Made by a program: the position numbers and the translations under genes
NCBI RefSeq assembly: GCF_014490485.1
Contig: NZ_JACTVA010000044.1
Coordinates: 1-47,155, forward strand
DNA from: Teichococcus aerophilus
GTDB lineage: Bacteria; Pseudomonadota; Alphaproteobacteria; Acetobacterales; Acetobacteraceae
Length of the DNA: 47,155 nucleotides
Reading direction: 5' to 3'
The notes under the pieces: generated by a model
What the model was told of the DNA's origin: nothing
Seen by the model: only the letters and a program-made list of their open reading frames with translations
The model's database searches: none
Shown here: piece by piece, positions 3,987-29,105 of the stretch
How positions within the stretch are numbered: position 1 is the first letter of the stretch
How the letters are laid out: every line of letters begins with the position of its first letter

Positions 3987-4216
3987 GGAAGGTCAGGGGA
4001 AAGAGTTCCCCTGAAGCCTCATCTTTTTTCTGTCAATTGGTGTGGGGCTTCAGGACCTCGGGTGCCGCCATGAGCAAGATCGTGAGTTATCCGGGCTGAA
4101 TGATCGGCCTCCCGCGGTCGCGGACCTTCGGCGTAACCCTGGTCTGGGCGTAGAAGAACCGAGGCCCCCGCAGCCACACCCAAAAGACTCTCCGGGGAAT
4201 TCCTTCCCCGGCCCTC
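3987..4216. repeat. Hairpin-ended intergenic element, copy 1 (diverged)
   Basis: About 230 bp. The left end is GGAAGG, then TCAGGGGAA (3993-4001), loop AGAG, TTCCCCTGA (4006-4014), then a T-rich tract. The right end is CCGGGGAA (4192-4199), loop TTCC, TTCCCCGG (4204-4211), then CCCTCC. The left hairpin has changed on both arms relative to the family yet pairs perfectly over 9 bp. The interior is the least like the other copies and is probably in the same orientation as copies 3 and 6. It lies 57 bases after the glcE stop, so its left hairpin can act as that gene's terminator. Confidence 0.7.
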
Positions 4217-4474
4217 CTGCCCAAGCCTGAATGTCGATCCATCCTGGCAGCGGCAGCGGTTTTTCTGAGATGCTGGTGGGGTGCCGGCGTTTTGGGAGAG
4301 GCCACGCCGGGCCGCCCCACCTGGTGCGCCGGCTGCGTGGGGATGGCGGCAAGCGCTCTCCGTAATCGGACGATGCCCGGAGCCTGCGGCAGCAGCGCCG
4401 CCGGCATCGGGAAGCCCTGCGACTCGGCGCCAGTGCCGACATCAGGATACGGCTGGCGACTCGGGCCCCTGCTG

Positions 4475-4669
4475 CTACGGCTGGCCGCGCGGGATGGCGC
4501 GCAACGCGTCCTGGCGGGCGGCTTCGGCCGGGCCGCCCACGGTGCGGGATGCCGCCAGGGCTTCGAGCAACGGGCGGGCGGGGCGCAGGGCCGCCGGCGG
4601 CACATAGGCCACGACCATGGGCGTCCTGGGCAGGCTGTGGCGGCTGGCGGCGAGGGCGAGAGCGCGCAT
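4475..4669 (-). CDS. Possible 64-residue hypothetical protein
   Basis: ATG-started ORF on the minus strand (MRALALAASRHSLPRTPMVV...) with strong G/C bias at third positions, similar to real genes in the window. It is rich in Ala, Arg and Pro and has no membrane segment or motif I recognise. The upstream GGAAAG is about 11 bases from the ATG, so the ribosome site is only fair. It sits alone between glcE and glcF on the opposite strand and could be a fragment of a displaced gene or a chance ORF in G+C-rich DNA. Confidence 0.35.
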   Translation of the reverse strand: MRALALAASRHSLPRTPMVVAYVPPAALRPARPLLEALAASRTVGGPAEAARQDALRAIPRGQP

Positions 4670-4991
4670 GGTCAGGGGGTCTTTCCGTCAGGAAGCCCCT
4701 TTTGGGCCGGTTGGCGCGCCCATCCTGCCACGGAAAAGATTGAGGAATGGTTGAGAGCCGGCGGCGGCGTCCCTCCGCCCTGAGCGTCACCGGATCGGCC
4801 AACCCCCTGGGGGAAGGGCGGGCCAGCCGGCCCGGCTGCGGGCGGAGGGAGCCTGCCGCGTCGTCTTGCGGCGATCACCACTGTCGGGGCCCATGCTGGC
4901 ACTGGCAGGGCGGCATCGCGGCGGCATCGTGGCACCGGCAGCCAGGTTCATGCTGCGAACAGGGCGTCATCGCGCGGTGGCTGCAGCATGA

Positions 4992-5084
4992 CGCGTTCGC
5001 ATCCGTTCACGAACCACGCTCTACGCCTTTGTTTGGTCGTGTGATTCAGGCTTTCGGCGATTCCGCCTCAGGCCATCACGCTCC
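4992..5084. repeat. Second repeat family (R2), copy 1
   Basis: About 93 bp align by eye with 32275-32367 over nearly the whole length. Shared blocks include GCGTTC, CGTTCACG, TCAGGC or CCAGGC followed by TTTCGG, and CCGCCTCA. The right half contains an imperfect inverted repeat (TGAT...GGC with GCC.TCA). It ends about 60 bases upstream of the glcF ATG. There is no ORF in it. It is unrelated in sequence to the CCGGGGAA hairpin family. Confidence 0.6.
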
Positions 5085-5142
5085 AGCTTGCGTCGGGCGC
5101 CGCGCCCGCCCACGCTGGGGGCGGGAGACGGACAGAACCACC

Positions 5143-6465
5143 ATGCAAACCAGCTTCACTCCGGCGCAGCTCGCAGACCCGGATACACGCGAATCCAACA
5201 CCATCCTGCGGAGCTGCGTGCATTGCGGCTTCTGCACCGCCACCTGCCCGACCTTCGTGCTGCTGGGCGATGAGTTGGATAGCCCGCGCGGCCGCATCTA
5301 CCTGATCAAGGACATGCTGGAAGGCGGCAGGCCGGCCACCGAGCAGGTGGTGCGGCATGTGGACCGGTGCCTCTCCTGCCTTTCCTGCATGACCACCTGC
5401 CCCTCGGGCGTGAACTACATGCATCTGGTGGACCACGCCCGCAGCTATATCGAGCGTACCTATACCCGCCCCTGGCCGGAGCGGCTGCTGCGCCGCGCGC
5501 TGGGGCTGCTGCTGCCCTATCCCGGCCGCTTCCGCCTGGCCATGCGCGCGGCCGGCCTGGCGCGGCCGCTGCGGCGGCTGGTACCCGGTGCGTCCATGAC
5601 GGCGAAGCGGCTGCGGGCGATGCTGGCACTGGCCCCCACCCGCCTGCCGCCCGCCACCACCACCCAGGGCCCGCAGATCCACAAGGCCGAAGGTGAACGA
5701 CGCGGCCGCGTGGCGCTGCTGACCGGCTGCGCGCAGAAGGTGCTGGCGCCCTCCATCAACGAAGCCACCATCCGGTTGCTGACGCGCATGGGGCTGGATG
5801 TCGTGGTCACCACCGGGCAAGGCTGCTGCGGCGCCCTGAACCACCACATGGGCCAGCACGACCCCGCCATGGCCCTGGCCCGTGCCAATATCGACGCCTG
5901 GACACGCGAGATCGATGGCGAGGGGCTCGATGCCATCGTCATCAATGCCTCCGGCTGCGGCACCACGGTGAAGGATTACGGCTTCATGTTCCGCGCCGAG
6001 CCGGGCGAGCAGCCGGCGCGCGCCGCCGCCGTCTCCGCCCTGGCCAAGGACATTTCCGAGGTGCTGGTGCAGTTCGACTACGCCCCCACCCGCGCGGCGA
6101 ACGGGCTGGAAGTGGCCTACCACGCCGCCTGCAGCCTGCAGCATGGCCAGAAGATCACCGCCGCGCCAAAGCAATTGCTGGCCCGCGCCGGCTTCAAGGT
6201 GCGCGAACCCGCCGAGCCGCATCTCTGCTGCGGCTCCGCCGGCACCTACAACCTGATGCAGCCCGACATCGCCGCCCAGCTTCGCGCCCGCAAGCTGGAG
6301 AACCTGCGCCGGACCGGGGCAGGACTGGTGGCGGGCGGCAATATCGGCTGCCTGACGCAGCTGTCGGGAGAAGGCGGGCTGCCGGCCGTGCACACAGTGG
6401 AGCTGCTGGACTGGATGGCGGGCGGGCCCCGGCCGGACGGGGTGGTGGAACCACAGGTGGCGTGA
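5143..6465 (+). CDS. glcF: Glycolate oxidase iron-sulfur subunit GlcF
   Basis: A 440-residue protein that passes electrons from GlcD/GlcE towards the respiratory chain. Two 4Fe-4S ferredoxin motifs lie near the N-terminus (CVHCGFCTATCP and CLSCLSCMTTCP), followed by two CCG domains with GCCGALNHH and LCCGSAGTYN. The length fits GlcF. The ATG at 5143 begins MQTSFTPAQLADPDTRES. GGGAG lies about 16 bases upstream, further than ideal, but no better start keeps the family N-terminus. The gene is separated from glcDE and probably needs its own promoter. Repeat copy 2 begins 18 bases after the stop. Confidence 0.93.
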   Translation: MQTSFTPAQLADPDTRESNTILRSCVHCGFCTATCPTFVLLGDELDSPRGRIYLIKDMLEGGRPATEQVVRHVDRCLSCLSCMTTCPSGVNYMHLVDHARSYIERTYTRPWPERLLRRALGLLLPYPGRFRLAMRAAGLARPLRRLVPGASMTAKRLRAMLALAPTRLPPATTTQGPQIHKAEGERRGRVALLTGCAQKVLAPSINEATIRLLTRMGLDVVVTTGQGCCGALNHHMGQHDPAMALARANIDAWTREIDGEGLDAIVINASGCGTTVKDYGFMFRAEPGEQPARAAAVSALAKDISEVLVQFDYAPTRAANGLEVAYHAACSLQHGQKITAAPKQLLARAGFKVREPAEPHLCCGSAGTYNLMQPDIAAQLRARKLENLRRTGAGLVAGGNIGCLTQLSGEGGLPAVHTVELLDWMAGGPRPDGVVEPQVA

Positions 6466-6483
6466 CGGAGCGGGGGCGTGAAG

Positions 6484-6848
6484 GGAAGGCCGGGGAAGGA
6501 ATTCCCCGGACCCCATCTTCTCCTTTTCGAGTTTTTCGGCGGGGCTGTTGAGAGGGTGGTTCTGAGAACACGGCTGGGTACGCCGAAGGCCTAAAGGCGG
6601 TTATGAACCTACGTTTAAATATCTGATTTGAAACATTTTTATTCCCGTTGACGCGCCGAGAATGATGAATGAAGTCGGTGGTTTATGGGTGGTCCAAAAC
6701 AGCCTCTAGGACCTTCGACGGCTGAGGGCTCAGCCCGCGTGGCCCGTATTTGAAATCATCAAGCAGCGTCCGCTCCTAGTCTTGCAGCACCACGCCAAAC
6801 TCGCAGAAAGAAAAGAAGGGGCCCGGGAAATTCTTTCCCCGGCCTTCC
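6484..6848. repeat. Hairpin-ended intergenic element, copy 2, between convergent genes
   Basis: About 365 bp, the longest copy because it carries a nested insert (6594-6706). The left end is GGAAGG, CCGGGGAA (6490-6497), GGAA, TTCCCCGG (6502-6509), then CCCCATCTTCTCC. The right end is AGAAAAGAAGGGG, CCGGGAAA (6823-6830), TTC, TTTCCCCGG (6834-6842, one bulged C), then CCTTCC. The interior shares GGCTGAGGGCTCAGCCCGCG and AAATCATCA with copy 5, in the same orientation. It fills the gap between glcF (+, 18 bases away) and the lipid kinase gene (-, 4 bases away), where each end can terminate the gene reading into it. Confidence 0.8.
6594..6706. mobile_element. Nested 113-bp MITE-like insert with TA duplication
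   Basis: This insert has 20-bp inverted ends compared from the flanking C: CCTAAAGGCGGTTATGAACC on the left and CCTAGAGGCTGTTTTGGACC when the right end is reverse-complemented, 16 of 20 matching. A TA lies on each side (6592-6593 and 6707-6708). By hand count it is about 42% G+C, far below the surroundings. Removing it and one TA restores the palindrome seen in the other copies (CGAAGG with CCTTCG). It has no coding capacity. The TA target suggests an IS630/Tc1-like or IS5-group source, which is inference. Confidence 0.6.
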
Positions 6849-6852
6849 CCCT

Positions 6853-7797
6853 TCACACCCCCAGAACAGCCCCCCCATTCCGCGGTGGCGCATAGACCAT
6901 CAGCGCCCCTGGGCGGATGCGGTAGCGCAGGGGCGGGCGCATGGGCGTGACTTCGCCGTCGACGGAGACGCGGACCCAGCCGGAGAGGGAGCGGATTTCG
7001 ACTTCGGAGATCAGGTAGCTCTCGAAATCCCGTTCTTCTTTCAGGCGGCCCAGCATGGCGCGGATGGCGACGCGGATGAGGCCCCAGATGCGGCGGGGGC
7101 GGGCGATGAACAGGCACAGGCGGCCGTCATCCAGGACCGCGCGGGTGCCGGGGCGGGGCAGGCTGACGTCGTAGGCGTTGTTGCCGATGAAGATCAGCGG
7201 CGTTTTGTAGCGGCGGGTCCAGCCTTCGGTGCTGACGCTCAGCCGGCGTACCGGGAAGCGCAGGGCAGTCTTCAGGCTGGCCCAGACCATGGCGGGCCAT
7301 TTCCCCCAGCCGGCGCGGCGGCGCTGCCGGTCCCGTTCCGCCACCATGGTGGCGTAGAGGCCGAGAGAGGAATTGTTGACGAAGACATGCCCGTTCACCT
7401 CCGCCACATCCACCGCGCGGACCTGGCCGGCGGCGATGATGCCGATGGCGTCCTCGATCTCCAGCGGCAGGCCGAGATCCTTGGCGAAGTGGTTGAGGGT
7501 GCCGAGCGGCAGCACGCCGAAGGGCACGCCGCTCTCGGCCAGCACGCCGGCGATGGCGCCGATGGTGCCATCGCCACCGCCGGCCAGGATGGCGTCGTAG
7601 TCCTTGCCCGGGCCAGTGCGGGCCAGGGCCCTGGTGGCGGTCTCGACCAGGGCGGCACCGGGGCAGAGGTGGATCTCGGCCTGCAGCCCATGATGGGCGA
7701 AGGCGTCCCGCAAGGCCGGCAGCGGGTTGCGGCCCAGCACGGAGCCGCCCCCCTCATTGATGATGACGAAGAGGCGGCGGGGAGCTGCGGGCTGCAA
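6853..7797 (-). CDS. Diacylglycerol kinase-family lipid kinase
   Basis: A 314-residue member of the DAGK catalytic (NAD/DAG kinase-like) family, which phosphorylates diacylglycerol, sphingoid or related lipids with ATP. The N-terminal domain carries AGGGDGTIGAIAG near residues 70-85, the family nucleotide-binding signature, then PLGTLNHFAKDLGLP and VNNSSLGLYA. The C-terminal beta domain contains VSVDGE, typical of YegS/DagK-like proteins. The start is TTG at 7797 with AAGGAAA about 14 bases upstream, just past the stop of the membrane-protein gene, so the two form an operon. Substrate is not determinable. The stop is 4 bases from repeat copy 2. Confidence 0.88.
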   Translation of the reverse strand: MQPAAPRRLFVIINEGGGSVLGRNPLPALRDAFAHHGLQAEIHLCPGAALVETATRALARTGPGKDYDAILAGGGDGTIGAIAGVLAESGVPFGVLPLGTLNHFAKDLGLPLEIEDAIGIIAAGQVRAVDVAEVNGHVFVNNSSLGLYATMVAERDRQRRRAGWGKWPAMVWASLKTALRFPVRRLSVSTEGWTRRYKTPLIFIGNNAYDVSLPRPGTRAVLDDGRLCLFIARPRRIWGLIRVAIRAMLGRLKEERDFESYLISEVEIRSLSGWVRVSVDGEVTPMRPPLRYRIRPGALMVYAPPRNGGAVLGV

Positions 7798-7804
7798 GTG
7801 GGTC

Positions 7805-8188
7805 TCAGGTTTCCTTGAAGATGATGCCGTTCAATGTCCGGCAGGCGGCGACGATCGCCAGGAGCCAGAGGCCCTGCACGATGAGGCCCGTGGGCGTCAG
7901 AACGTGCCCGGCCGCGACCAGTTGCGTGGGGAAGGCCTCCAGCACCGGCTGCACCTCGGCGGGGACCGGCAGCTTGCCGATGATCTGCGAGGCCGCCCAC
8001 CACAGCCCGCCCAGCATCAGCAGCAGCGGGGCCACGACCTCGGCCACCAGCTCGACAAAGGTAAGGGCGAAGCTGACAAAGCCCCAAAAGACAATGCCGA
8101 TGCCGCGCAGCGCCATGGCACCCCAGTTGCGGCCGGTGCGCCGGTCCGCGTCGAAATCATACTCGTTGTGTGCCGAGTAGCCGGACAT
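7805..8188 (-). CDS. Small integral membrane protein of unknown function
   Basis: A 127-residue protein (MSGYSAHNEYDFDADRR...) with a short acidic cytoplasmic-like N-terminus and about three hydrophobic segments, one around residues 25-60 (IGIVFWGFVSFALTFVELV and the adjoining LLLMLGGLWW) and one near the C-terminus (LIVQGLWLLAIVAA). I do not recognise the family. The ATG at 8188 follows GGAGAGA 6-7 bases upstream. It lies directly upstream of the lipid kinase gene, only 7 bases apart, so a role in membrane lipid physiology is possible but unproven. Confidence 0.75.
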   Translation of the reverse strand: MSGYSAHNEYDFDADRRTGRNWGAMALRGIGIVFWGFVSFALTFVELVAEVVAPLLLMLGGLWWAASQIIGKLPVPAEVQPVLEAFPTQLVAAGHVLTPTGLIVQGLWLLAIVAACRTLNGIIFKET

Positions 8189-8535
8189 GGCAGTCTCTCC
8201 GTGCTCTTCCAGGCGCCCCTGGGCCTCGGCACGGGGGCATGAATGACCCCCTGAATAGACGATGCGACCGGGCGGCACATCCCTGCAATCGCTCGCAGTG
8301 TCCGGCTCACGGCTTCGGCATCTGGATTGATCTGGGGGAGCGTAAGGGAAGGTCACTTCCGGGACTTGAGCGGTTTCCAGCATACACGGTGTGGATTCTG
8401 CGCTGGAGCAACCTGTGTGCCGGTTTGGCAGAACACCGGCGTCCGGTCTTGCGGCCGACGCCAATCGCGGCGCACTGGCTACCGCTTACGCAAAGAAAAA
8501 GGCCTGGGGATGTGCTCCCCAGGCCTGTCCAGGCT
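8189..8535. other. Intergenic region
   Basis: About 350 bp between two minus-strand genes. The right part holds the terminator of the Tim44-like gene. The left part should hold the promoter of the membrane protein-lipid kinase operon. Open frames here have no ribosome site. Confidence 0.5.
8491..8525 (-). terminator. Intrinsic terminator of the Tim44-like gene
   Basis: A perfect 10-bp stem, GGCCTGGGGA (8501-8510) with TCCCCAGGCC (8516-8525), is followed on the minus strand by TTTTTCTTTG. It begins 11 bases past the stop codon. The stem resembles the repeat-family hairpins but lacks their flanks. Confidence 0.85.
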
Positions 8536-9522
8536 TCAGCTCGCCTGCTGCACGGCGGAGACGCGCCAGGCGCCGCCACCCTGGCGGGCGAAGGTCCACA
8601 GCTCCGTCACCGTCTGGCGGCGCTCCGGGTCGCCCTCGACCACCGCGTGGGTGGAGAGATCGCGCGTCACGTCCACCAGGCTGAAGCGCATGGCGACCGT
8701 GGCGTACTCGGTCGAACCCTCGCGCCAGGCTTCGGACAGGTCGCCCTGCTCCAGCTGCACGTCGCGCGTCTCGTTGTGCCAGTTGCGGCTGGCAAGGTCG
8801 CGCAGGTCGTTGGCGAAGTAGCCAGCCATCTCCGGCGTCGCCAGGCGGCCCAGCGCGGCTTCATCGCGGCGGGACCAGGCGGCGTTCACCTCCTTCAGCG
8901 TCCGCTCGAAGGCGGTGAAATCGGCGTCGGTGACCTGGATGGGGCTGGTGGCCACCGGGGCGCTGCCGCCACCATAGCCGCCGGCCGCCGGGTTGGTCGC
9001 CTGGCGGGCATAGGTGTTGCCCATCGGGCCGGCCGCGCCGCCCATGGCCGCACGCGGATTGGGGCCGCCGGCCATGGCGGGCTGGTTGCGCTGGCGCACC
9101 AGCTTCATGATGAAGCGCACGGCGAACACTACCAGCGCCACCTGCAGCAGCAGGCCCAGCAGGCCAGCGAAGCCGCTGATGCCACCGAACAGGCCGTTGC
9201 CGAACAGCAGGCCACCCAGGCCCACGCCGATCAGGCCGCCCATCATGCCGGCCATGAAGCCGCCGCCGAAGCGGCTGCCCTGCGCCTGCGGCACCGCCTG
9301 ACCCGGCGTGACCGGCGCGGCGGGGCGGGTGGGCTGCGTCGCGGTGCGGTCCATCTGGCTGGGCGCGGTCGGGGCCGTGCGGGTGGCGGGCGGGGCGCTA
9401 TAGGTACGGCTGCCGCGGCTGCCGGAGCTGAAGCCACCACCCGGCCGTGCATCGGCCATGGCGGGCGCCAGCACGAAGGCCAGGGCCGCGATTGCGGTCA
9501 GGAAACGGGCTTGGCGTCGCAT
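8536..9522 (-). CDS. Tim44-like domain protein
   Basis: A 328-residue protein with a signal peptide or anchor (about residues 1-26, ending APAMADARPGG), a Ser/Thr/Pro-rich stretch to about 90, a Gly- and Met-rich hydrophobic region (FGNGLFGGISGFAGLLGLL, then a membrane helix), and a C-terminal Tim44-like domain of about 120 residues (DADFTAFERTLKEVNAAWSRRD; WTFARQGGGAWRVSAVQ). Tim44-domain proteins of alphaproteobacteria are membrane-linked and of uncertain role, related to mitochondrial Tim44. The ATG at 9522 has GGAGA 7 bases upstream. An ATG at 9543 would add seven residues. Confidence 0.85.
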   Translation of the reverse strand: MRRQARFLTAIAALAFVLAPAMADARPGGGFSSGSRGSRTYSAPPATRTAPTAPSQMDRTATQPTRPAAPVTPGQAVPQAQGSRFGGGFMAGMMGGLIGVGLGGLLFGNGLFGGISGFAGLLGLLLQVALVVFAVRFIMKLVRQRNQPAMAGGPNPRAAMGGAAGPMGNTYARQATNPAAGGYGGGSAPVATSPIQVTDADFTAFERTLKEVNAAWSRRDEAALGRLATPEMAGYFANDLRDLASRNWHNETRDVQLEQGDLSEAWREGSTEYATVAMRFSLVDVTRDLSTHAVVEGDPERRQTVTELWTFARQGGGAWRVSAVQQAS

Positions 9523-9758
9523 GATGGGTCTCCGGTAGTCCATGATTTGTCCATGATATAGTAATGTTAGGGCCCAACGCCAATGCAGCCCCGCGTCGCA
9601 TCTGCAAGATGTCGTGCGCTCGGGGCGTTTTCCCAGGCCTCCGGGACCTGTGGACCCGTGTCTTTTCAAGGATCTGAGGGAGTGGCTGAGCCGGGGCGGA
9701 CAATCTGCTGCGAGCCGGATTCGCGGCAGGTGCGAGTGGGCCGCGCTGTTCGGTGGGA

Positions 9759-10007
9759 GGAAGGCCGGGGAAGAATTCCCCGGACCGCTTCTTTTTTTCT
9801 GCGAGTTTGGTGGAGCGCCTCAGAATCTGGGCCGACGCTGCTTGATGATTTGATCATGGGCCACGCCGGTTGAACCCTCATGCGCCGGAGGTCCAGAACT
9901 TCCGGCGCACCCAGCCGTCTCTCAGACCAGACTTCTCAACGGCCGCACCGGCAAAACCCGAAAAAAGAAAGAAGGGGGCCGGGGAATTCCTTCCCCGGCC
10001 CCCTTCC
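9759..10007. repeat. Hairpin-ended intergenic element, copy 3
   Basis: About 249 bp. Left end GGAAGG, CCGGGGAA (9765-9772), GAA, TTCCCCGG (9776-9783), then a T-rich tract. Right end: a perfect 13-bp stem, GGGGGCCGGGGAA (9974-9986) with TTCCCCGGCCCCC (9991-10003), loop TTCC. The central palindrome is TGCGCCGGAGGT (9881-9892) with ACTTCCGGCGCA (9898-9909), one mismatch. The interior is the reverse complement of copies 4 and 5 (TGATGATTTGATCATGGGCC). The right end, read on the minus strand, is hairpin then TTCTTTCTTTTTTC, a strong terminator 8 bases after bphP. Confidence 0.8.
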
Positions 10008-10015
10008 CATCGCAC

Positions 10016-19790: not shown

Positions 19791-20414
19791 ATGAAGCGAC
19801 GCGCCCTGCTGCTGGCCCTTCCCATGACCGCCGGTCTGGCCGCCTGCGGCAGCGTGTTGCCGGACCGGCCCTATGTGGAGACGCTGCGCTTCCCCTTCAC
19901 CGCCACCCGCAACGGCCCGCCGGCCGGCGCCGGGCGCCGCGTGTTGCTGGTGCGGCTGATGCGCGCGGCCCCGGGCATGGAAACCCGCGGCCTGCGCAGC
20001 ATCCGCGCCGACGGTACCGAGGTGGTGGATTTCTACGCCGAGTGGACCGCGCCCCCGGCCGAGCTGGCCGAGGAATCGCTGCGCCGCTGGCTCTCCGCGT
20101 CCGGGCTGTTCGGTGCGGTGGTGGCCCAGGGCACCCGTGCGCCCAGCGACTTCACCCTGGAATGCGAACTGACCGGCCTGGTGGCCGATCTCGGCCGAAG
20201 CGAAGCCCGCGCCGGGCTTTCCGCCGTGCTGATGCGCGACGTGAACGGCGAATCGCGGCTGGTGCGCCAGCTTGCCGTCACCGGCCGCGCAGCGCTGCCC
20301 GCCGTGGCCGCCGACGCCACCCTGCCGCCAGCCGCCGTGGCCGCCGGCATGAACGCTGCCTTCGCCGCCGCCCTGGGCGCGCTGGAGAAAGGGCTGGCGC
20401 CGTTCGTGCGCTGA
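19791..20414 (+). CDS. ABC-type transport auxiliary lipoprotein (PqiC/LptE-like)
   Basis: A 207-residue lipoprotein with a type II signal (MKRRALLLALPMTAGLAAC; lipobox LAAC, so the lipidated Cys is residue 19). The mature protein resembles the family of auxiliary lipoproteins that accompany MCE transporters (VETLRFP near the start, FYAEWTAPPAELAEESLRRWL, LECELTGLVADL). It is the fourth gene of the Mla-like operon and probably links the system to the outer membrane. An ATG at 19776 overlapping the mlaD stop is possible, but the ATG at 19791 has GAGG 9 bases upstream and a cleaner signal peptide. Confidence 0.85.
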   Translation: MKRRALLLALPMTAGLAACGSVLPDRPYVETLRFPFTATRNGPPAGAGRRVLLVRLMRAAPGMETRGLRSIRADGTEVVDFYAEWTAPPAELAEESLRRWLSASGLFGAVVAQGTRAPSDFTLECELTGLVADLGRSEARAGLSAVLMRDVNGESRLVRQLAVTGRAALPAVAADATLPPAAVAAGMNAAFAAALGALEKGLAPFVR

Positions 20415-20474
20415 AACTGGGGCGGGCTTCCGACACTGGATCTGTGTTCGGAGTTGATCGCGTTTGGGAGACAA

Positions 20475-20697
20475 GGAAAGCCGGGGAAGGAATTCCCCGG
20501 ACCCCATCTTCTCTTTTTTCGAGTTTCGCCGTCGTGGCTGCTGAGGGCGCCAGAGGTCTCAGACCTCCGGCGGCTGAGGGTTCAGCGCGCGCGACCCAGT
20601 TACAAAATGGCTAAGCAGCGTTCGCTCTCAGTCTGCAGCGTCATGCCAAATTTGCAGAAAAAAGAAGGGGTCTGGGGAATTCATTCCCCAGCCTTTC
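20475..20697. repeat. Hairpin-ended intergenic element, copy 4
   Basis: About 223 bp. Left end GGAAAG, CCGGGGAA (20481-20488), GGAA, TTCCCCGG (20493-20500), then CCCCATCTTCTCTTTTTTC. Right end AAAAAAGAAGGGG, CTGGGGAA (20672-20679), TTCA, TTCCCCAG (20684-20691). The right arms differ from the family at the same position on both sides and still pair. Interior palindrome GAGGTCT/AGACCTC (20553-20567), then GGCTGAGGGTTCAGC and AAAATGGCTAAGCAGC, same orientation as copies 2 and 5. It starts 60 bases after the Mla-operon stop and probably terminates it. Confidence 0.8.
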
Positions 20698-21559: not shown

Positions 21560-21627
21560 CGCACTGTCTTGCCGCTTTCGCCGCCGGGCGATAAGCCGGC
21601 CGCAGGCAGCAGCAGGGATGACACGGC

Positions 21628-23298
21628 ATGGCGACCGACCTGGAGATCGCGCGCGCGGCGCAACTCCGGCCGATCCGCGAGATCGCGGAGAAGGCTGGCA
21701 TCCCTGAGTCGGCGCTGGAGCCGTATGGCCGCCACAAGGCGAAGATCAGCCTGGATTTCGTCACGGCGCAGGAGAGCCGCCCGGATGGCGCCCTGGTGCT
21801 GGTGACCGGCATCAGCCCCACCCCGGCCGGCGAGGGCAAGACCACGACGACGGTGGGGCTGGGCGATGCGCTGAACAGCCTGGGCACGCGCGCGATGATC
21901 GCGCTGCGCGAGCCTTCGCTCGGCCCGTGCTTCGGCGTGAAGGGTGGCGCCACCGGCGGCGGTTATGCCCAAGTGCTGCCGATGGAGGAGATCAACCTTC
22001 ACTTCACCGGCGATTTCCACGCCATCACCTCGGCCAACAATCTGCTGGCGGCGATGGTGGACAACCACCTGTACTGGGGCAACGAGCTGGGGCTGGATGC
22101 GCGCCGCATCGTCTGGCGCCGTGCCATCGACATGAATGACCGCGCGTTGCGCAGCATCACCGCCGGGCTCGGCGGCGTGCCCAACGGCTTCCCGCGTGAG
22201 GATGGGTTCGACATCACCGTCGCCTCGGAAGTCATGGCGGTGTTCTGCCTGTCGCGCGACCTCGCGGACCTGCAGCGGCGGCTGGGGCGGATCATCGTCG
22301 GGCATACGCGGGATGGGCGCGCCATCACGGCGCATGACCTGAAGGCGGATGGCGCCATGGCAGCGCTGTTGCGGGATGCGCTGGCGCCGAACCTGGTGCA
22401 GACGCTGGAAGGCAGCCCGGCGCTGGTGCATGGCGGGCCATTCGCCAACATCGCCCATGGCTGCAACAGTGTCATCGCCACGCGGCTGGCATTGAAGCTG
22501 GCTGACGTGGTGGTAACGGAGGCGGGCTTCGGCGCCGACCTGGGCGCCGAGAAGTTCCTGGACATCAAGTGCCGCCAGGCCGGGCTCTCGCCCGCCGCCT
22601 GCGTCGTCGTCGCCACGGTGCGGGCACTGAAGATGCATGGTGGCGTGGCCAAGTCCGCGCTGGGGGCTGAGGATGTGGCGGCGGTGACGCGCGGCACCGC
22701 CAATCTGCGCCGGCATGTGCAGAACATGCAGAAATTTGGCCTGCCGGTCGTGGTGGCACTAAACAAGTTCGTCAGCGACACGCAGGCGGAGATCGAAGCG
22801 GTGCAGGCGGCGATGCGCGCGCTGGGTGTGGATGCCATTCTCTGCACCCATTGGGGCGATGGCGCCGCGGGCGCGCAGGAACTGGCCCGCGCCGTGCAGG
22901 CGATGATCGCCAGCGGCCGCGCGAAGTTCGAGCCGCTGTACAACGACCACGTCTCCCTGGCTGGAAAGATCGAGACGGTGGCACGCGAGATCTATCACGC
23001 CTCCGCCGTCAGCATCCCGCCGCCGGTGGCGGCGAAGCTGCGGAAGTTCGAGGAAGCGGGCTTTGGCGAGGTGCCGGTCTGCATCGCCAAGACGCAGTAT
23101 TCCTTCAGTGCCGACCCGACGATGCTGGGTGCGCCGGAAGGCCATGTGCTGCCGCTGCGCGAGGTGCGGCTTTCCGCCGGGGCGCAGTTCGTCGTCGCGA
23201 TCGCGGGGGAGATCATGACCATGCCGGGCCTGCCGCGCCGCCCGGCGGCGGAAGGCATCGGCCTGGATGCGGATGGCCGCATCGACGGGCTGTTCTAG
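21628..23298 (+). CDS. fhs: Formate-tetrahydrofolate ligase
   Basis: A 556-residue cytoplasmic enzyme that joins formate to tetrahydrofolate with ATP, giving 10-formyl-THF for one-carbon metabolism. The ATP-binding segment [19 protein letters not shown] near residue 62 and the following [19 protein letters not shown] are diagnostic, as are [14 protein letters not shown] and [14 protein letters not shown]. The length matches the family. The ATG at 21628 has AGGGA about 9 bases upstream. It appears to be a single-gene unit between a DUF2939-like gene and a methyltransferase gene on the same strand. Confidence 0.97.
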
Positions 23299-23422
23299 GC
23301 CGGCCGGATGCGTGCCGCCCCGCGATGCCGTGACGCCGTGCGCCTGGCGATGACGCACGGGCTGCGGCATCGCCGTCGTGGGGTGACTGTCCTGCCCCGG
23401 TCCGGACGGGGCTAGCCCGCGC

Positions 23423-24622
23423 ATGGCGAAGCCCGACCCGGATGCGCTGCTGCGGCAAGGCCTGGCCCGGCACCAGGCCGGCGATACCGCCGAGGCCGGG
23501 CGGCTGTACCGCCGCGTGCTGGCGCTGCGCCCGGCGGATGGCAATGCGCTGAACCTGCTGGGCCAGTTGGCCCGTGCCCAGGGCGACCTGAAAGCGGCGC
23601 TGGCGCTGACTGGCCGTGCCGTGGCGCTGCACCCGGGCGCACCGGTCTTCCTGGCGGCGCACGGCGCCACCCTGGCCGAGGCCGGGCGGCTGGACGAGGC
23701 CGTGGCCACCCTGCGCGCCACCGTGGCCGCGCGGCCTACGGACGCCGTCAGCCTGCGCAACCTGGGGCAGGCGCTGGCCGCGCTGGGCCGCACCGGGGAG
23801 GCTTTGGTGCCGCTGCGGCAGGCCGTGGCGCTGCACCCGGCCGCCGCCGAGGCGCAACTGGCCCTGGCCCATGCCTGCCGCGAGGCCGGGCTGCGGGAGG
23901 AAGCCGCCATCCATGCCCGGAATGCCGCGGCCGACCCGGCCCTGGCCGGGCAGGCGGGTTTCCTGCTGGCCGCGCTGGGTGCCGCCCCGGCGCCCGACCG
24001 CGCGCCCGCCGCCTATGTGCGCGACCTGTTCGACCAATACGCCCCGCGCTTCGATGACGACCTGACCGGGCGCCTCGGCTACCGCACCCCCGCCGCACTG
24101 GCCGAGCTGCTGCGGGATTCCGGGATCGCCGTCGATAGCAGCCTGCGAGTGCTGGATCTCGGCTGTGGCACCGGACTTTCCGGCGTCGCGCTGGCCCCCT
24201 TCGCCGCGCGGCTGGAGGGGCTGGACCTCTCGCCCCGCATGCTGGCGGCGGCGCGAGCGCGCGGCCTCTATCACGCGCTGCATGAGACCGACCTGCTGGA
24301 CGCCCTGCCGCGCCAGCCAGGCGCCTGGGACCTGATCGTGGCGGCCGACGTGCTGAACTACCTGGGCGACCTGGCTCCGGTGCTGCCAGCCCTGGCCGCC
24401 GCACTGGCCCAAGGCGGCACCGCCGCCTTCAGCGTGGAGGTGGGCGAGGTGGCGCCCTTCGCCCTTGGCCCCGGGCTGCGCTACCGCCACCAGCCGGCGC
24501 ATCTGCGCGGTCTGTTCGCCGGGGCAGGGCTGTCCGTCCTGGCGGAGCAGGATTGCGTGCTGCGGCAGGAACAGGGGCAGGCGGTGGCTGGGATGCTATG
24601 GGTGCTGCGCCGGCAGGGGTGA
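23423..24622 (+). CDS. TPR-repeat SAM-dependent methyltransferase
   Basis: A 399-residue fusion of about five tetratricopeptide repeats (residues 5-175; units such as QGLARHQAGDTAEAGRLYRR and ALAALGRTGEALVPLRQAV) and a class I methyltransferase (about 195-399). Motif I is LDLGCGTGLSG and the post-motif acidic residue lies in LEGLDLSPRML. VRDLFDQYAPRFDDDLTGRLGY just before the domain is typical of this TPR-methyltransferase group. The substrate is unknown; the TPRs suggest a protein target or partner. The gene has an ATG at 23423 with a weak ribosome site. Repeat copy 5 starts 23 bases after the stop. Confidence 0.88.
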   Translation: MAKPDPDALLRQGLARHQAGDTAEAGRLYRRVLALRPADGNALNLLGQLARAQGDLKAALALTGRAVALHPGAPVFLAAHGATLAEAGRLDEAVATLRATVAARPTDAVSLRNLGQALAALGRTGEALVPLRQAVALHPAAAEAQLALAHACREAGLREEAAIHARNAAADPALAGQAGFLLAALGAAPAPDRAPAAYVRDLFDQYAPRFDDDLTGRLGYRTPAALAELLRDSGIAVDSSLRVLDLGCGTGLSGVALAPFAARLEGLDLSPRMLAAARARGLYHALHETDLLDALPRQPGAWDLIVAADVLNYLGDLAPVLPALAAALAQGGTAAFSVEVGEVAPFALGPGLRYRHQPAHLRGLFAGAGLSVLAEQDCVLRQEQGQAVAGMLWVLRRQG

Positions 24623-24645
24623 CGGTGGTCTTCTCCTGTGAGGGG

Positions 24646-24895
24646 GGAAGGCCGGGGAAGGGATTCCCCGGACCCCTTCTTTTTTTCGAGTTCTACCGGG
24701 CGTGCTGTTGGATGCGGCGGTTCTGAGGGACGGCAGTGTGCGCCGGAGGTCATGGACCTCCGGCGACTGAGGGCTCAGCCCGCGCGGCCTCCTTATAAAA
24801 TCATCAGGCCGCGTCCCGCTCTCAGTCCCGAAGCGGCACGCCAAACTCACAGAAAGAAAAGAAGGGGGTCCGGGGAATTCCTTCCCCGGCCTTCC
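24646..24895. repeat. Hairpin-ended intergenic element, copy 5 (clearest copy)
   Basis: About 250 bp and the best example for defining the family. Left end GGAAGG, CCGGGGAA (24652-24659), GGGA, TTCCCCGG (24664-24671), CCCC, then TTCTTTTTTTC. Centre: CGCCGGAGGTC (24741-24751), loop ATG, GACCTCCGGCG (24755-24765), then ACTGAGGGCTCAGCCCGCGC and TATAAAATCATCA. Right end AGAAAGAAAAGAAGGGGG, CCGGGGAA (24870-24877), TTCC, TTCCCCGG (24882-24889), CCTTCC. It begins 23 bases after the TPR-methyltransferase stop, with a T-rich tract placed for termination. Confidence 0.85.
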
Positions 24896-25300
24896 TTTCA
24901 ACCCAGCATCGCCAACCCTGACTGAATCCCAAAAGGCTATGCCGAGGGCGTGAAGGCTTGGCGCCACACAGGTTCATGTTGCCTTAACTCTCATCCCCGA
25001 ATGTGACGCAGCCGCATGATGCGGGAGCGACCGGGCCGCATTGCCCGCTGGATGAGGGGAATCCCTGACCCTGGGACAGATCGCGAGGCAGGCCGCCCTG
25101 GGCGGCAGGTGGGGAAGGGTGGGGCCGGCGCCGGCAGCGTCCCGATTCGCTGTTCCCATGATGCCGTGCGGTGGCGCTGCCACCGGCCATGGCCTGGCCC
25201 CGCGATGCGCCGATGCCAAGCCTGACCCTGACCCCGCAAGGTGGCAGCCGGCTGATGGCCCGGGTGCCACCCGTCCCTAGCCGGAAAGCCCGAATGCCCA
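24896..25300 (+). other. Upstream region of flbT
   Basis: About 400 bp with no convincing ORF. It should hold the flbT-flaF promoter. I looked for a sigma-54 -24/-12 pair and found none with correct spacing. Confidence 0.45.
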
Positions 25301-25717
25301 ATGAGCACCCTCGTCCTTGAACTGCGCCATGGCGATATGCTGATCGTCAATGGCGCGCCCATCCGCTTCCGCAGCCGCACCCGCGTGGAACTGACCAGCC
25401 GGGCGCGCTTCCTGTTCGGCAAGCAGATCCTGCCCGCGGAGGCGGCGACCACGCCGGTCCGCCGCATCTATTTCGCCTTGCAGACAGCCTATGTCGGCAA
25501 TGGGGAGGAACGGCAGGGCGGGCTGGCATTGGCCCGGGACCTGGTGGCCGAATACCGCAGCCAGGACGTGGCCGAGGCCGCGAAGGATGCGGTGACCCGC
25601 GCGCTGGCCGCCGCCGAGGCCGATGAGTGCTACGAGGCGCTGAAGCTGGTGCGGCGCCTGATGCGCCAGGAAGACGAATCCGCCACCGTGGAAAGCGGCG
25701 CGGCATGCGTGGCCTGA
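25301..25717 (+). CDS. flbT: Flagellin biosynthesis regulator FlbT
   Basis: A 138-residue protein matching FlbT, which in Caulobacter binds flagellin mRNA and controls its translation and stability. The N-terminal half has the family pattern LVLELRHGDMLIVNGAPIRF followed by RARFLFGKQIL. The C-terminal half is helical (LARDLVAEYRSQDV; ALKLVRRLMRQED). The ATG at 25301 has GGAAAG about 12 bases upstream. flaF overlaps the 3' end. No flagellin, hook or basal-body gene is in the window, so the pair stands apart from the structural genes. Confidence 0.9.
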   Translation: MSTLVLELRHGDMLIVNGAPIRFRSRTRVELTSRARFLFGKQILPAEAATTPVRRIYFALQTAYVGNGEERQGGLALARDLVAEYRSQDVAEAAKDAVTRALAAAEADECYEALKLVRRLMRQEDESATVESGAACVA

Positions 25718-26103
25718 ACGCCGATGGTTCCGACACCCGGATGCGGGAAGCGGCGCTGTTCCGCGCCGTCAGCGCCCATCTGCGGCAGGTGCGGCCGGGC
25801 CACGGTGTCCCGGCGCTGGAGATGACGGATGGGCAGGCCCGCCAGCGTGCCCTGGCGGATGCCAGGCGGTTGTGGCTGGCGGTGGGGGCGGCGGTGGCGC
25901 GGCCGGATTGTGGTTTGTCCGAGTCCCTGCGCCTCAGCCTGTCCCGCCTGGGGCTGGCTGTGTTGAAGGAATTGCGGGCGCCGAGTCCCAACCTGGAGAT
26001 GCTGATCAACCTGAATGATCAGATCGCCGATGGCCTTGCGCCCCGTTACGGGTGGGACGCCGCCATGCCCCTGGACGAGGACGGTCGGCCACTCGAAACT
26101 TGA
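25705..26103 (+). CDS. flaF: Flagellar biosynthesis regulator FlaF
   Basis: A 132-residue protein that fits FlaF, the partner of FlbT needed for flagellin secretion and expression in alphaproteobacteria. Family-like segments are REAALFRAVSAHLRQV, ALADARRLWLAV, LSRLGLAVLKEL and LEMLINLNDQIADGLAP. Two starts are possible: 25705 (chosen), overlapping flbT by 13 bases, and 25741 (MREAALFR), which would be closer to the usual length and begins where similarity starts. Neither has a strong ribosome site, consistent with coupling to flbT. Confidence 0.85.
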   Translation: MRGLNADGSDTRMREAALFRAVSAHLRQVRPGHGVPALEMTDGQARQRALADARRLWLAVGAAVARPDCGLSESLRLSLSRLGLAVLKELRAPSPNLEMLINLNDQIADGLAPRYGWDAAMPLDEDGRPLET

Positions 26104-26187
26104 ACGTCCATTCAGATGAGCCTATAAAACCGTCGGGACGAGTTGCGAGCGATTCTCAATTCCTTCGCAACGCAGGAGAATGGTTGT

Positions 26188-26427
26188 ATGGGCAACGACT
26201 TCAGCCACATCACCCGCCGGTGCGAGCGGGCGGTGGTGACGGCGTATCGTGAACTCCGCGAGACCGGTAATGACGACCTGTCGTCGTTCCGTGCCTGTAC
26301 CGCCTTGTACCGAATCCACCACCCTGAGGCTTCGGTGAACGAGGCGCGGCGGCTGGTGTCCGAATGGATCGACCACCATCTGGTGCGCGGCGAGACCAGC
26401 CCGACCAATGGGTGCGAGTGCCCGTAA
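26188..26427 (+). CDS. 79-residue hypothetical protein
   Basis: A small soluble protein (MGNDFSHITRRCERAVVTAY...) with predicted helices, two His residues in a row (IDHHLVRGE) and a Cys-rich end (NGCECP). It has no signal peptide and I do not recognise the family. Expression looks real: AGGAGA lies about 8-9 bases before the ATG, TATAAA occurs 65 bases upstream, and a strong terminator follows 45 bases after the stop. It is a single-gene unit downstream of flaF, and a flagellar link is only positional. Confidence 0.75.
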   Translation: MGNDFSHITRRCERAVVTAYRELRETGNDDLSSFRACTALYRIHHPEASVNEARRLVSEWIDHHLVRGETSPTNGCECP

Positions 26428-26472
26428 CCTCCGGGTGCTGACGCCGGCTATCGGTTCAGGATTTTACGACGA

Positions 26473-26504
26473 AGGCCACCCCCATCCCTGGGCGTGGCCT
26501 TTTT
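26473..26504 (+). terminator. Intrinsic terminator after the 79-residue gene
   Basis: GGCCACCCC and CTGGGCGTGGCC form a stem (GGCCAC with GTGGCC outermost) followed by TTTTT. Confidence 0.8.
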
Positions 26505-26882
26505 CTATGCCTGTTTGCTGGTTGGCGCCTGATGTCGCGAGTGAGTGTCGGCAGGGGCGTCGCCGTCCGGGGCGAACAGGCGGCCAACGGTCCCGGAGGG
26601 CGTTATCCCGCCGAGCATGATCAGCGCCTGTCACGGTCGCGCGGATGGCCCTTTGCCAAGCCGTTTTGCCGGAAAGCAGGTCCGACACTGAGGGATGCGG
26701 TAGCTAGCCCCTAAACCTGTGCCGATGGCACGGTGCAGTCGTGGACCTGCTCGCCCTGCGACGATCACGCTTCAGTGGAATGGGTCACCCGCTGGCGCCG
26801 CCTGCTTTGATGCCTTGGCAGGCCTACCCGCCAGACAGCCGCAGCCCGCTGGAACCCAACCGCCGCCGCCACCTCCGCACTC
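26505..26882. other. Gene-free region
   Basis: About 380 bp between the terminator and the repeat end beside ggt. Short frames on both strands lack ribosome sites and consistent codon bias. I checked it for a left partner of the solo repeat end and saw none. Confidence 0.5.
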
Positions 26883-26885
26883 ACC

Positions 26886-26929
26886 GCAAAAAGAAAGAAG
26901 GGGCCCGGGGAATTCCTTCCCCGGCCTTC
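26886..26929 (-). repeat. Solo hairpin end of the intergenic element family, after ggt
   Basis: Right-end type: CAAAAAGAAAGAAGGGG, CCGGGGAA (26905-26912), TTCC, TTCCCCGG (26917-26924), CCTTC. Read on the minus strand it is a hairpin followed by CCCTTCTTTCTTTTTG, placed 29 bases after the ggt stop, so it probably terminates that gene. No element interior or left end is seen. Confidence 0.75.
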
Positions 26930-26958
26930 TCACCCCACCCGAAAAGGGCAGCCCTGGC

Positions 26959-28647
26959 TCAACGCCGCCCCACCTCAGGATTGAAGCGCACATCCGGCCG
27001 CGCCAGCCCGCCGGCGATGCCGACCGGCGTGCCGTCCGCCCGCCAGCAGGCGGCGCCTTCCAGCGCGCCGTCCGGCAGGAAGCGGATGGCGCCCATCCCG
27101 CCGCCGATATGCTTCGGGCGCACCGTCTTGTGGCCGCGCGCCTGCAGGCCGGCTTCGGTTTCGGCCGAAACGGTGGGTTCCAGTTCCAGCGTGTGGCCCT
27201 GGGTCCAGATGCGGGGTGCCTCTACCGCGTCCTGCAGGTCCATGCCGTGGTCGATCAGGTTGATGATCGCCTGCATGGCGGAGCCGAAGATGCGCAGGCC
27301 GCCCGGCAGCCCCAGCGCGAAGGCGGGCTTGCCGTCCTTCAGCACGATCGACGGCGCCATGGAGGTGAAGACCCGCTTGCCGGGCTCGACCGAGAGCGCG
27401 GTGTTCGGGTGCGGGTCGAAGTTGAACATGTAGTTGTTGGCGATCAGCCCGGTACCCGGAATGCTGAAGCGCGCCCCGAACAGGCTGTTGATGGTCTGGG
27501 TGGTGGCGACGACGTTGCCGAGCGAATCCGCCACCGTGACATGCGTGGTGTTGGCCGATTCGGCCGGCGGCACGCCCGGCGCCCAGTCCTGCGCCGCATC
27601 CAGCTTCAGCAGGGCGCGGCGTTCGGCGGCATAGTCCTTGGAGGTCAGACGCTCCACCGGCACCTTCACGAAGGCGGGGTCGGCGGTGGCGACGGCGCGG
27701 TCGGCGAAGGCCAGCTTCAGCGACTCGGCCAGCAGGTGGATGGTCTCCGCCGTGCCGAAGCCGAGGCCGGCGATGTCGTAGCCCTCCAGCACATTCAGCA
27801 TCTGTGTCATGTGCACGCCGGAGGATGAGGGCGGCGGCGGGGCCAGGACCTCGAAGCCACGATACTCACCACGGATCGGCTCCCGCTCGATCACCTCGAA
27901 GGCCTCCAGGTCGGCCATGGTGATCAGGCCGCCGCTGGCCGCCATATGCGCCGCCAGCGCCCGGCCGATGGCGCCGCCATACAGCGCCTTCGGGCCTTCC
28001 GCCGCGATCAGCCGCAGCGACTCGGCCAGCTCCGGCTGCTTCAGCAGGCTGCCCACCGCCGGGACCTCGCCGCCCGGCAGGAAGGTCGCGGCCAGGCCGG
28101 GGTCCCGCGCCAGCTCCGCCTTGCCGTCGGTGATCGCGCCGGCCAGGTAGGCGGTGACGCGGAAGCCCTCACTGGCGGCGCGGATGGCCGGGCGCAGCAC
28201 CTCGGCCAAAGGCAGGGTGCCGTGGTCGGCCAGCGCCTTGCACCAGCCGGCCAGGGCGCCGGGCACCGCCATGGCCAGCACGCCGATATTGTTCTCCCGG
28301 TCCACCGTCTCCTGGTAATCGGGCAGGGTGTCGCTGACGGTGCGGTACATGTCCCCCCGCGCGGCCAGGGGCGCGGTGGAAAGCCCGTCCAGCACCAGGT
28401 GACGGCCATCGGCCAGCCGGATATGCGCCACGCCGCCGCCCAGCGGGCCGACCATCATCGGCTCCACCACCGTCAGGGTGAACAGCGCTGCGATGGCGGC
28501 GTCGATGGCATTGCCACCCCCCAGCAGCATCTCGGACCCCGCGGCGGAGGCGACGGGATGGTTGGTGACGACCATGCCCTTGCTGCCCCGGGCCGGACCC
28601 TTCTCCAGGGCAAAGCTGCTGCCAGCGCGGGTTTTCCAGTCGGTCAA
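26959..28647 (-). CDS. ggt: Gamma-glutamyltransferase family protein, no signal peptide
   Basis: A 562-residue Ntn-hydrolase. The autoprocessing and catalytic Thr is Thr367 in SANTTHVTV, giving a large subunit of about 366 residues and a small one of about 196. LGLPGGLRI supplies the Gly-Gly that forms the oxyanion hole. Such enzymes move or hydrolyse the gamma-glutamyl group of glutathione and similar compounds. Unlike periplasmic GGT, no signal peptide is seen, so it resembles cytoplasmic YwrD-type members and may act on another amide. The start is TTG at 28647 with AAGGA 8 bases upstream. Confidence 0.92.
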   Translation of the reverse strand: MTDWKTRAGSSFALEKGPARGSKGMVVTNHPVASAAGSEMLLGGGNAIDAAIAALFTLTVVEPMMVGPLGGGVAHIRLADGRHLVLDGLSTAPLAARGDMYRTVSDTLPDYQETVDRENNIGVLAMAVPGALAGWCKALADHGTLPLAEVLRPAIRAASEGFRVTAYLAGAITDGKAELARDPGLAATFLPGGEVPAVGSLLKQPELAESLRLIAAEGPKALYGGAIGRALAAHMAASGGLITMADLEAFEVIEREPIRGEYRGFEVLAPPPPSSSGVHMTQMLNVLEGYDIAGLGFGTAETIHLLAESLKLAFADRAVATADPAFVKVPVERLTSKDYAAERRALLKLDAAQDWAPGVPPAESANTTHVTVADSLGNVVATTQTINSLFGARFSIPGTGLIANNYMFNFDPHPNTALSVEPGKRVFTSMAPSIVLKDGKPAFALGLPGGLRIFGSAMQAIINLIDHGMDLQDAVEAPRIWTQGHTLELEPTVSAETEAGLQARGHKTVRPKHIGGGMGAIRFLPDGALEGAACWRADGTPVGIAGGLARPDVRFNPEVGRR

Positions 28648-28874
28648 GCTGCGTATCCTTCACAGGCGGCGCCCAATGGGCGCGAAGTGGGCGCGAACAG
28701 GTGGCGGCTGTCGGGCACCGCCCAGGGCGCAACGGCCGCCAGGAAGCGGCGCGGACACGGTGGGCACCGACAGGAAGGGCAGCAGGCTCGCCCCGCCACG
28801 GGCGATTGTCCACCCGGCGGGGGCGGGGGAATGGGAGCGGCGCTTGATTTTGGTGCTGGGCGGGGACGGTAGGC

Positions 28875-29105
28875 GGAAGGCCGGGGAAAGAATTCCCCGG
28901 ACCCCATCTTTTCTCTCTGCGGGTTTGGCGTGGCGCTTGGAGTGGTGAGCGGACGCTCCTGATGATTTTTAAAATGGACCATGCGAGCTGACCAGTCGCC
29001 GCAGGTCTGGCGCACCCAGCCGTCTCTCCGGTCCTGCCCCACCAACAGCCAGGCCCGAAAAACCCGAAAAAGATAGGGGCTGGGGAATTCTTTCCCCGGC
29101 CTTCC
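28875..29105. repeat. Hairpin-ended intergenic element, copy 6, between divergent genes
   Basis: About 231 bp. Left end GGAAGG, CCGGGGAA (28881-28888), AGAA, TTCCCCGG (28893-28900), CCCCATCTTTTCTC. Right end GATAGGGG, CTGGGGAA (29080-29087), TTCT, TTCCCCGG (29092-29099), CCTTCC. Interior (GGGTTTGGCGTGG; TGATGATTTTTAAAATGG; CGCACCCAGCCGTCTCTC) runs in the same direction as copy 3. It is the only full copy not next to a stop codon. It lies 227 bases upstream of ggt and 173 upstream of the ligase-like gene, and no gene is visible on either side of it within the gap. Confidence 0.8.

Follow-up and report, generated by a model that had tools for sequence, protein, structure and literature searches.

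The window analysed here, a stretch of 47,155 bases with 70% G+C (contig NZ_JACTVA010000044.1 of the Teichococcus aerophilus assembly GCF_014490485.1; the genome measures 5.66 Mb in 140 contigs), carries six paired copies and two single ends of a family of hairpin-ended intergenic elements, which is dispersed through the genome and the genus Pseudoroseomonas and is located predominantly at the 3' ends of genes. In each end, a unit of about 50 nucleotides (nt), a hairpin with the purine arm R and the pyrimidine arm Y is joined through a linker of about 3 nt to a third tract, H, the mirror of Y, and the tracts R, Y and H covary. The family is probably a short, dispersed, non-autonomous repeat of Pseudoroseomonas, with ends under selection to fold as DNA triplex hairpins, the triple helix being deduced from the pattern of covariation, and comparison of the sequences indicates that it has relatives in other Acetobacteraceae.

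The third tract of the ends covaries with the hairpin

The elements were characterized in a sample of 436 kb, made up of the window and 20 stretches picked for good matches, in which the end profile finds 81 pairs and 17 single ends, giving 98 elements. A 252-nt consensus was derived from 48 of these 81 pairs; its two ends, each about 50 nt long, are inverted repeats, and within the interior the central palindrome is the best conserved part. The order within an end is AAGG, hairpin, linker, C-rich tract and T-tract. On either side, the flanking sequence is rich in purines towards the element. The preliminary description of the window had correctly recorded the CCCC that follows the hairpin, without seeing that it belongs to the covarying third tract; the location of the copies at gene 3' ends had likewise gone unnoticed. 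Compensatory changes in the hairpin are evident when considering 103 distinct ends, where 94.4% of the cells pair and 80 cells are changed on both sides, compared with 19.0 in shuffles, none of the 500 shuffles reaching 80. The third tract separates the hairpin from the T-tract, which begins 5–9 nt past the stem, unless an outer stem is formed, and many ends are unable to form one. Some ends contain an additional hairpin, a 20-nt palindrome that reads ATCAAACCTATAGGTTTGAT or is a similar form whose changes are matched in the two halves; it occupies the linker position and separates the first hairpin from the remainder of the third tract (L035:7588-7851, L040:9930-10193 and L049:14118-14383, and also in genome G002 near 7565 of L101 and in G013 near 3267 of L115).

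The agreement of the third tract with the hairpin was scored for 191 non-redundant T-tract hairpins, kept from 275 after 84 had been removed, 66 as duplicates, 17 for want of a purine arm and 1 for being too short. The mirror score of this set is 0.838, whereas 2000 permutations have a mean of 0.764 (standard deviation [SD], 0.006) and a maximum of 0.788. A second set was selected by the profile, ignoring structure, and here 105 of 112 ends were kept (7 failed the score, edge or N filter) and 102 were scored, with 3 giving no arm in the parser; the mirror score is 0.911, against a permutation maximum of 0.872, and for the 61 distinct ends it is 0.851, against 0.834. The alternative that the third tract pairs with the arm in antiparallel fashion gives no signal, either in the 191 hairpins (0.092 versus 0.101) or in the profile-selected ends, and is rejected.

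The correspondence is also visible when comparing the individual arms. GGGGAA mostly occurs with CCCC(T/A)T, GGGGGAA with CCCCC(A/T)T, GGGGAAA with CCCCATT and GGGGGAG with CCCCCTC; the arm GGGGGGAA occurs with CCCCCCTT or CCCCCCAT (one of the three has CCCCCCCT), GGGGGAGAA with CCCCCTC(T/A)T and GGAGGGAGAA with CCACCCTCAT or CCTGCCTCTT. Both ends were parsed in 75 of 113 pairs overall, and in the 14 of these that have unlike arms, the third tract fits its own hairpin better than that of the partner in 13 cases, with one tie and none being worse. A finder for tracts of at least 9 nt with at most one mismatch, applied to the window and to L001-L187, returned 11 mirror matches versus 3 for the antiparallel control, and in all 11 the linker is 3 nt long. 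Since the third tract is a mirror and not a complement, neither base pairing nor a single protein that reads a half-site three times explains it.

The letters of the third tract suggest which type of triple helix would be formed. In the 163 of the 191 ends used for the letter counts, aligned at an offset that was chosen by the triplex rule itself, C is found opposite G in 711 of 731 third-tract positions, and opposite A there is T in 262 and A in 66 of 334 positions, whereas in the next 8 nt A is found in merely 11 of 1304. The complementary strand reads third tract, linker, R, loop and Y, which is the arrangement of a class I purine-motif intrastrand triplex, and its triads are GGC, AAT and TAT (G facing G, and A or T facing A), as in the purine motif. 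The search rule for intrastrand triplex motifs described by Holder et al. 2015 (PMC4666352) asks for three tracts of 6–15 nt obeying GGC, AAT or TAT, with loops of 1–6 nt; tracts of 6 nt have to match throughout, and a single mismatch is tolerated from 7 nt upwards. GGGGAA with CCCCTT or CCCCAT, having a loop of 4 and a linker of 3 nt, falls within this definition; the finder used here differs from the program of Holder et al., and some ends fall short of the definition. According to the same source, purine-motif triplexes do not form in RNA, whereas pyrimidine-motif triplexes can (PMC4666352). Together with the A found opposite A, this favours single-stranded DNA as the place where the three-tract structure would act.

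The three-tract architecture is retained, with different letters, in other genera. An end of Roseomonas rosea reads GGGGAGAGGAAGAA with CCCCTCACCTTCTT and mirrors in 14 of 14 positions; the genome of this species has 240 candidates, of which the 40 that were scored are 90–100% alike to the query. Paracraurococcus sp. LOR1-02 has about 10 copies, several of them being inverted pairs with unlike purine arms, each with a third tract of its own (GGGAGGGGAG/CCCACCCCAC and GGGGGGAGAAGGAG/CCCCCCACAACCTC, mirroring in 14 of 14 and 13 of 13 positions), and here the linker is 3 or 4 nt. When the loci of both species are taken together, 34 T-tailed hairpins, most of which are closely related copies and a few of which lie outside the family, mirror in 390 of 426 positions, versus 277 for the reversed order, and in these outgroup ends A is opposite A in 54 of 134 positions. 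Of ten genes adjoining the Paracraurococcus copies, nine belong to Pfam families of metabolism, transport or the like, and the tenth is without a Pfam family. In many of the Roseomonas rosea copies shown (L189, L195, L197, L201, L204 and others), another conserved repeat, around GGGGTTCCAAGGGCCTCAGGCCCTTGGCGGG, is seen about 200 nt downstream of the end.

Abundance, position at gene ends and spread

With the 250-nt copy 5 of the window as the query, 568 first-look candidates are found in its own genome, and the 40 that were scored all align over nearly the whole query with 80–100% identity. The core CCGGGGAAN0-5TTCCCCGG has 440 exact occurrences in this genome, compared with 0 for the reversed-pattern control. 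With an end model (R1, a covariance model built from 88 of 105 ends of relatives), 16 of 17 Pseudoroseomonas genomes are matched, with 16 to at least 150 matches each. These genome-wide copies and the matches in relatives bear out the earlier proposal that the window holds members of a real family of hairpin-ended, paired, intergenic elements without coding capacity. The sole genome of the 17 without an end-model match, G008, offers a natural comparison for how the family and its mobiliser were gained or lost. About 105 of the 440 cores fall within the sample, which covers 7.7% of the genome and is thus about 3-fold enriched, and by extrapolation the genome is estimated to hold some 340 pairs and 70 single ends, roughly 400 elements. 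In collections of plasmid, phage and Escherichia coli sequences, only two Pseudoroseomonas cervicalis plasmids have short matches, and no family match is present among the phage or E. coli entries.

Dispersal is apparent from the full copies among the ten matches scored per genome, which are similar in the own genome and in G006 (full-length, 78–80% identity) and more diverged in G013 (two near-full-length copies, 69–72%). The central query segment 96–145 occurs alone in some relatives. In 60 stretches of relatives, partly picked for matches, 112 ends make up 32 pairs of 97–253 nt, half of which (16 of 32) are short pairs of 97–164 nt, and 48 single ends; as single ends and short pairs are common there, it is possible that the single end is the basic unit of the family.

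The positions of the elements were compared with genes called by a simple in-house caller, which gives approximate start positions. None of the 98 sampled elements extends more than 15 nt into a called gene. The 81 pairs lie in convergent (38), tandem (34) and divergent (7) settings or at an edge (2), whereas the available gaps of more than 30 nt are 55, 143 and 56, respectively (chi-square p = 3.7e-8). In the tandem settings, 32 of the 34 pairs are closer to the 3' end of the upstream gene than to the next 5' end, with median distances of 25 and 126.5 nt, and the median distance to the stop codon is 26 nt for the full copies. Among the single ends of relatives, 25 of 48 lie −2 to 14 nt past a stop codon in the same sense, and 20 of the other 22 have a gene 3' end on the T-tract side, at a varying distance. 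Counted by hand, 17 single ends have convergent neighbours, 8 are sense-only and 20 are antisense-only, the antisense count possibly including ends with an unrecognised partner. The orientation of the interior is random with respect to the tandem genes, being the same in 14 and opposite in 13 of the 27 copies (of 34) that could be oriented, the other 7 having interiors that are too diverged; an oriented role of the interior is therefore rejected. One orthologous junction seemingly holds different forms in three species, namely a 130-nt pair in G007 (L106:8069-8198), a single end in G004 (L103) and a 240-nt pair in G013 (L116:10245-10484).

Among 12 sampled elements, copies from one species are 78–91% alike, and two pairs of positional orthologues between species are 78.1 and 82.2% alike. 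Because the copies within a species are generally more alike than the orthologue pairs, they may turn over or be homogenised within species, as far as this sequence comparison goes. No candidate for the Y1 transposase family PF01797 is found in the own genome, the completeness of which is 99.9%, or in G006, and among 12 genus genomes searched G005 alone has a match, which is partial and just at the cut-off. Three wide inward-facing pairs are present in the sampled sequence, with lengths of 459, 595 and 864 nt, the last enclosing an open reading frame for a GNAT acetyltransferase; no autonomous copy was recognised in the sampled sequence, a minor part of the genome. The earlier designation of the elements as non-autonomous is likely to be correct, and has been tested in part.

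The proposed triple helix and its alternatives

In the interpretation preferred here, selection would act on a triple helix that is formed while the G-rich strand is exposed as a single strand, such as at replication forks or in transcription bubbles. The folded ends, often two facing inward, would be recognised by an enzyme or by a fork-stalling process during spread, and copies would persist at gene 3' ends, where they may be harmless and may add transcript ends consisting of a hairpin and a T-tract.

Several observations weigh against this interpretation. When considering the structure, 28 of the 191 ends scored below the cut for the letter counts, two arm types dominate (GGGGAA in 113 and GGGGGAA in 61 of the 191), the permutations ignore the relatedness among ends, and with only T accepted opposite A the 61 distinct ends score 0.717, against a permutation maximum of 0.723. 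In the window, a rough parse of 5–7 positions per end gives a full fit to the mirror rule for 9 of the 14 ends, with 4 having one mismatch and 1 scoring 2 of 5. When considering the spread, no target duplication is detected in the 74 of 81 elements compared (mean match 0.74, versus 0.86 in shuffled pairs), which old copies could have lost; four sampled copies of the own genome have no counterpart in G006, where the flanks are too diverged for exact junctions; among the relatives compared there is no clean empty site or excision, mobility being read from the dispersal; and no candidate mobilising gene was found by the PF01797 search or in the sampled sequence. A role at transcript ends is weakened by the single ends of relatives near tandem genes, which are antisense in 20 and sense in 8 cases. 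Finally, for TM_ECO, the best studied motif of the closest known system, which folds as a triplex in vitro, an in vivo footprint suggested that formation is only minor or temporary (PMC4666352).

It is quite possible, while falling short of probable, that the ends are the intrinsic terminators of the genus (an RNA hairpin and a U-tract) that have been amplified as a repeat, with an incidental third tract. Like such terminators, the ends have a hairpin and then a T-rich tract, downstream of stop codons at gene 3' ends, and a stable hairpin is obtained on RNA folding, but the energies are merely 0.9–1.9 SD below shuffles. A family end lies within 100 nt of 105 of 233 non-operonic gene ends, compared with 5 that have a strict canonical terminator, in a count that covers own-genome stretches picked for matches and uses a strict definition that may undercount terminators. 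The ends differ from terminators in having a mirrored tract between the stem and the T-tract, a dispersed homologous interior and occurrence in both senses. The resulting distance of the T-tract from the stem, in the many ends without an outer stem, counts against this explanation, which predicts neither the mirrored covariation nor a conserved interior of 150 nt, and the excess of antisense-only over sense-only single ends in tandem settings speaks against a purely sense-strand terminator.

A triple helix could also be formed in RNA, as a pyrimidine-motif (class III) triplex of the C/T-rich strand, in which CCCCUU is the third strand and the U-tract follows directly after the fold. This would have the same covariation and would account for the 3' location and the T-tract, and RNA is capable of the pyrimidine motif (PMC4666352). 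It is considered unlikely, because only U is allowed opposite A, yet A is found there in the 66 of 334 positions of the Pseudoroseomonas-centred set and the 54 of 134 of the outgroups, and because antisense single ends are common. Runs of 4–6 protonated cytosines are moreover unfavourable at neutral pH.

A similarly low probability is given to the element being an ordinary miniature inverted-repeat transposable element (MITE) of a DDE insertion sequence, with terminal inverted repeats that happen to include a hairpin. The inverted ends of about 50 nt, the high copy number and the absence of visible coding capacity agree with this, and the family shares with the MITEs Correia, ERIC and RUP the form of an intergenic inverted-repeat element of 100–300 bp that lacks coding capacity. 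It differs from them in having neither a target duplication nor a partner insertion sequence that could be found, and in its frequent single ends, which in the sampled relatives outnumber pairs by 48 to 32. There is no excess of target-site duplications among the 74 elements compared and no autonomous copy in the sampled part of the genome, and the mirrored covariation is left unexplained.

Still less probable is a longer, bulged Watson–Crick stem, in which the third tract pairs with the upstream purine flank (GAAGG with CCTTC). RNA folding does find this pairing in CCCCTTC ends (2 of 3 ends folded), but the common CCCCAT and CCCCCAT ends cannot form it fully, and the flanks in Roseomonas rosea and Paracraurococcus are, by eye, not complementary to their own third tracts. 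Repetitive extragenic palindromic (REP) units are marked by a conserved tag of the GTAG or CGTC type next to their hairpin. A REPIN origin, in which a RAYT (Y1 tyrosine) transposase would have moved REP sequences in pairs, is very improbable, and is rejected for the own genome by the PF01797 search described above, which gave no RAYT gene. The family resembles REPIN/BIME systems in its short palindromic units that occur singly or as inverted pairs in many copies without target duplication, and differs from them in being larger and in having three-tract ends, which are flanked by a GGAAGG consensus in place of such a tag.

Copies in the window and related triplex repeats

All 14 ends claimed for the window are recovered by the end model, built from the ends of other species only, with E ≤ 6.3e-7, and direct reading, repeat search and end model agree with the coordinates first given for the copies and solo ends. 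At E ≤ 0.1 the window has 18 matches, 3 of the 4 extra ones being the opposite strand of claimed ends. A hairpin with a T-tract at 8492-8531 on the − strand is a weak match (E 7.4e-4) and is probably an ordinary terminator. No end-model match lies beyond 29,107, in line with the absence already noted past about 29.1 kb; with the estimate of about 400 elements per genome, 18 kb without a copy is unremarkable. No Rfam family reaches its gathering score within the window.

The geometry of an end is best illustrated by copy 5 (24646..24895, + strand), a full element with a + gene ending at 24622, 22 nt upstream. In its left end, on the + strand, the R arm GGGGAA (24654..24659) and the Y arm TTCCCC (24664..24669) are followed, after a 3-nt linker, by the third tract CCCCTT (24673..24678), which mirrors Y, and by the T-tract (24680..24686), such that transcription from the flanking gene passes the hairpin and then the T-tract. 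The central palindrome, the best conserved portion of the interior, is at 24741..24765.

Copies 2 to 6 have a common interior, which, as first described, runs one way in copies 2, 4 and 5 and the opposite way in copies 3 and 6. Copy 2 (6484..6848, + strand), between a + gene ending at 6465 and a − gene ending at 6853, is a full element with an insert of about 119 nt within the central palindrome. Long copies (window 6590-6710; L052:14635-15093) have unrelated inserts of about 100–230 nt in this palindrome, as if it were itself an insertion target. Copy 3 (9759..10007, − strand) is a full element with reversed interior, 10 nt off the 3' end of a − gene (10016), copy 4 (20475..20697, + strand) is a full element 59 nt downstream of a + gene ending at 20414, and copy 6 (28875..29105, − strand) is a full element with reversed interior and, by the gene calls used here, divergent genes on either side. 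Copy 1 (3987..4216, unoriented) has both family ends, of which the right end has lost its third tract (2 of 5), and shares nothing else with the others: its interior cannot be aligned to the 252-nt consensus, and blastn aligns merely 27 nt of its right end. The six copies described at first as full are all paired, with the interior of copy 1 being unrelated and that of copy 2 interrupted. The single end at 1121..1165 (− strand) has a hairpin, a third tract that mirrors in 6 of 7 positions by script parse and a T-tract, scoring 37.5 bits with the end model, and the one at 26886..26929 (− strand) lies 28 nt downstream of a − gene ending at 26959, with which it shares its sense.

The closest known system is BoxC/PIT/TM_ECO, which is described in PMC4666352 as class II, with 9-nt tracts, intergenic and more often upstream of open reading frames; TM_ECO is reported there as being without promoter or terminator activity and linked to genome instability, and in five E. 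coli cases two motifs that differ in type are paired in inverted orientation (PMC4666352). Both systems have three tracts capable of the purine motif with a 3-nt linker between the purine tracts, are intergenic and occur in many copies, the number of which varies between relatives. The present family differs in being class I (third tract, R and Y on the G-rich strand), in its variable tract sequence of 6 to 14 nt with a T-tract following, in its position at gene 3' ends and in often being part of an inverted pair of 97–459 nt with an interior. The TM_ECO pattern CCCTCNCCC N3-6 GGGNGAGGG N3 GGGNGAGGG has no exact match in the 5.66-Mb genome. Judged by its letters, the family has the structure of an intrastrand triplex motif, and neither the sequence nor the class of TM_ECO. 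A wider proposal, put forward tentatively, is that there are mobile repeats whose ends are recognised through an intramolecular DNA triplex, as folded single-stranded DNA rather than as a sequence, with covariation in at least three genera, and that BoxC/PIT may be a second (class II) branch of these. The open-licence literature searched gave no account of this family, nor of covariation across three strands in triplex repeats of bacteria.

Covariation is the type of evidence that established RNA secondary structures, and its extension over three tracts here suggests that a triple helix is under selection, the rule of T or A opposite A separating the purine motif of DNA from the pyrimidine motif of RNA. 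Intrastrand triplex motifs have been catalogued in bacteria, and the evidence for them in the cell, as presented in PMC4666352, is weak. With this family, a natural role for triple-stranded DNA becomes testable, the variants in several genera being ready test molecules, and the mobiliser, along with a possible role at transcript ends, can be searched for with the help of the hundreds of copies located where genes end.

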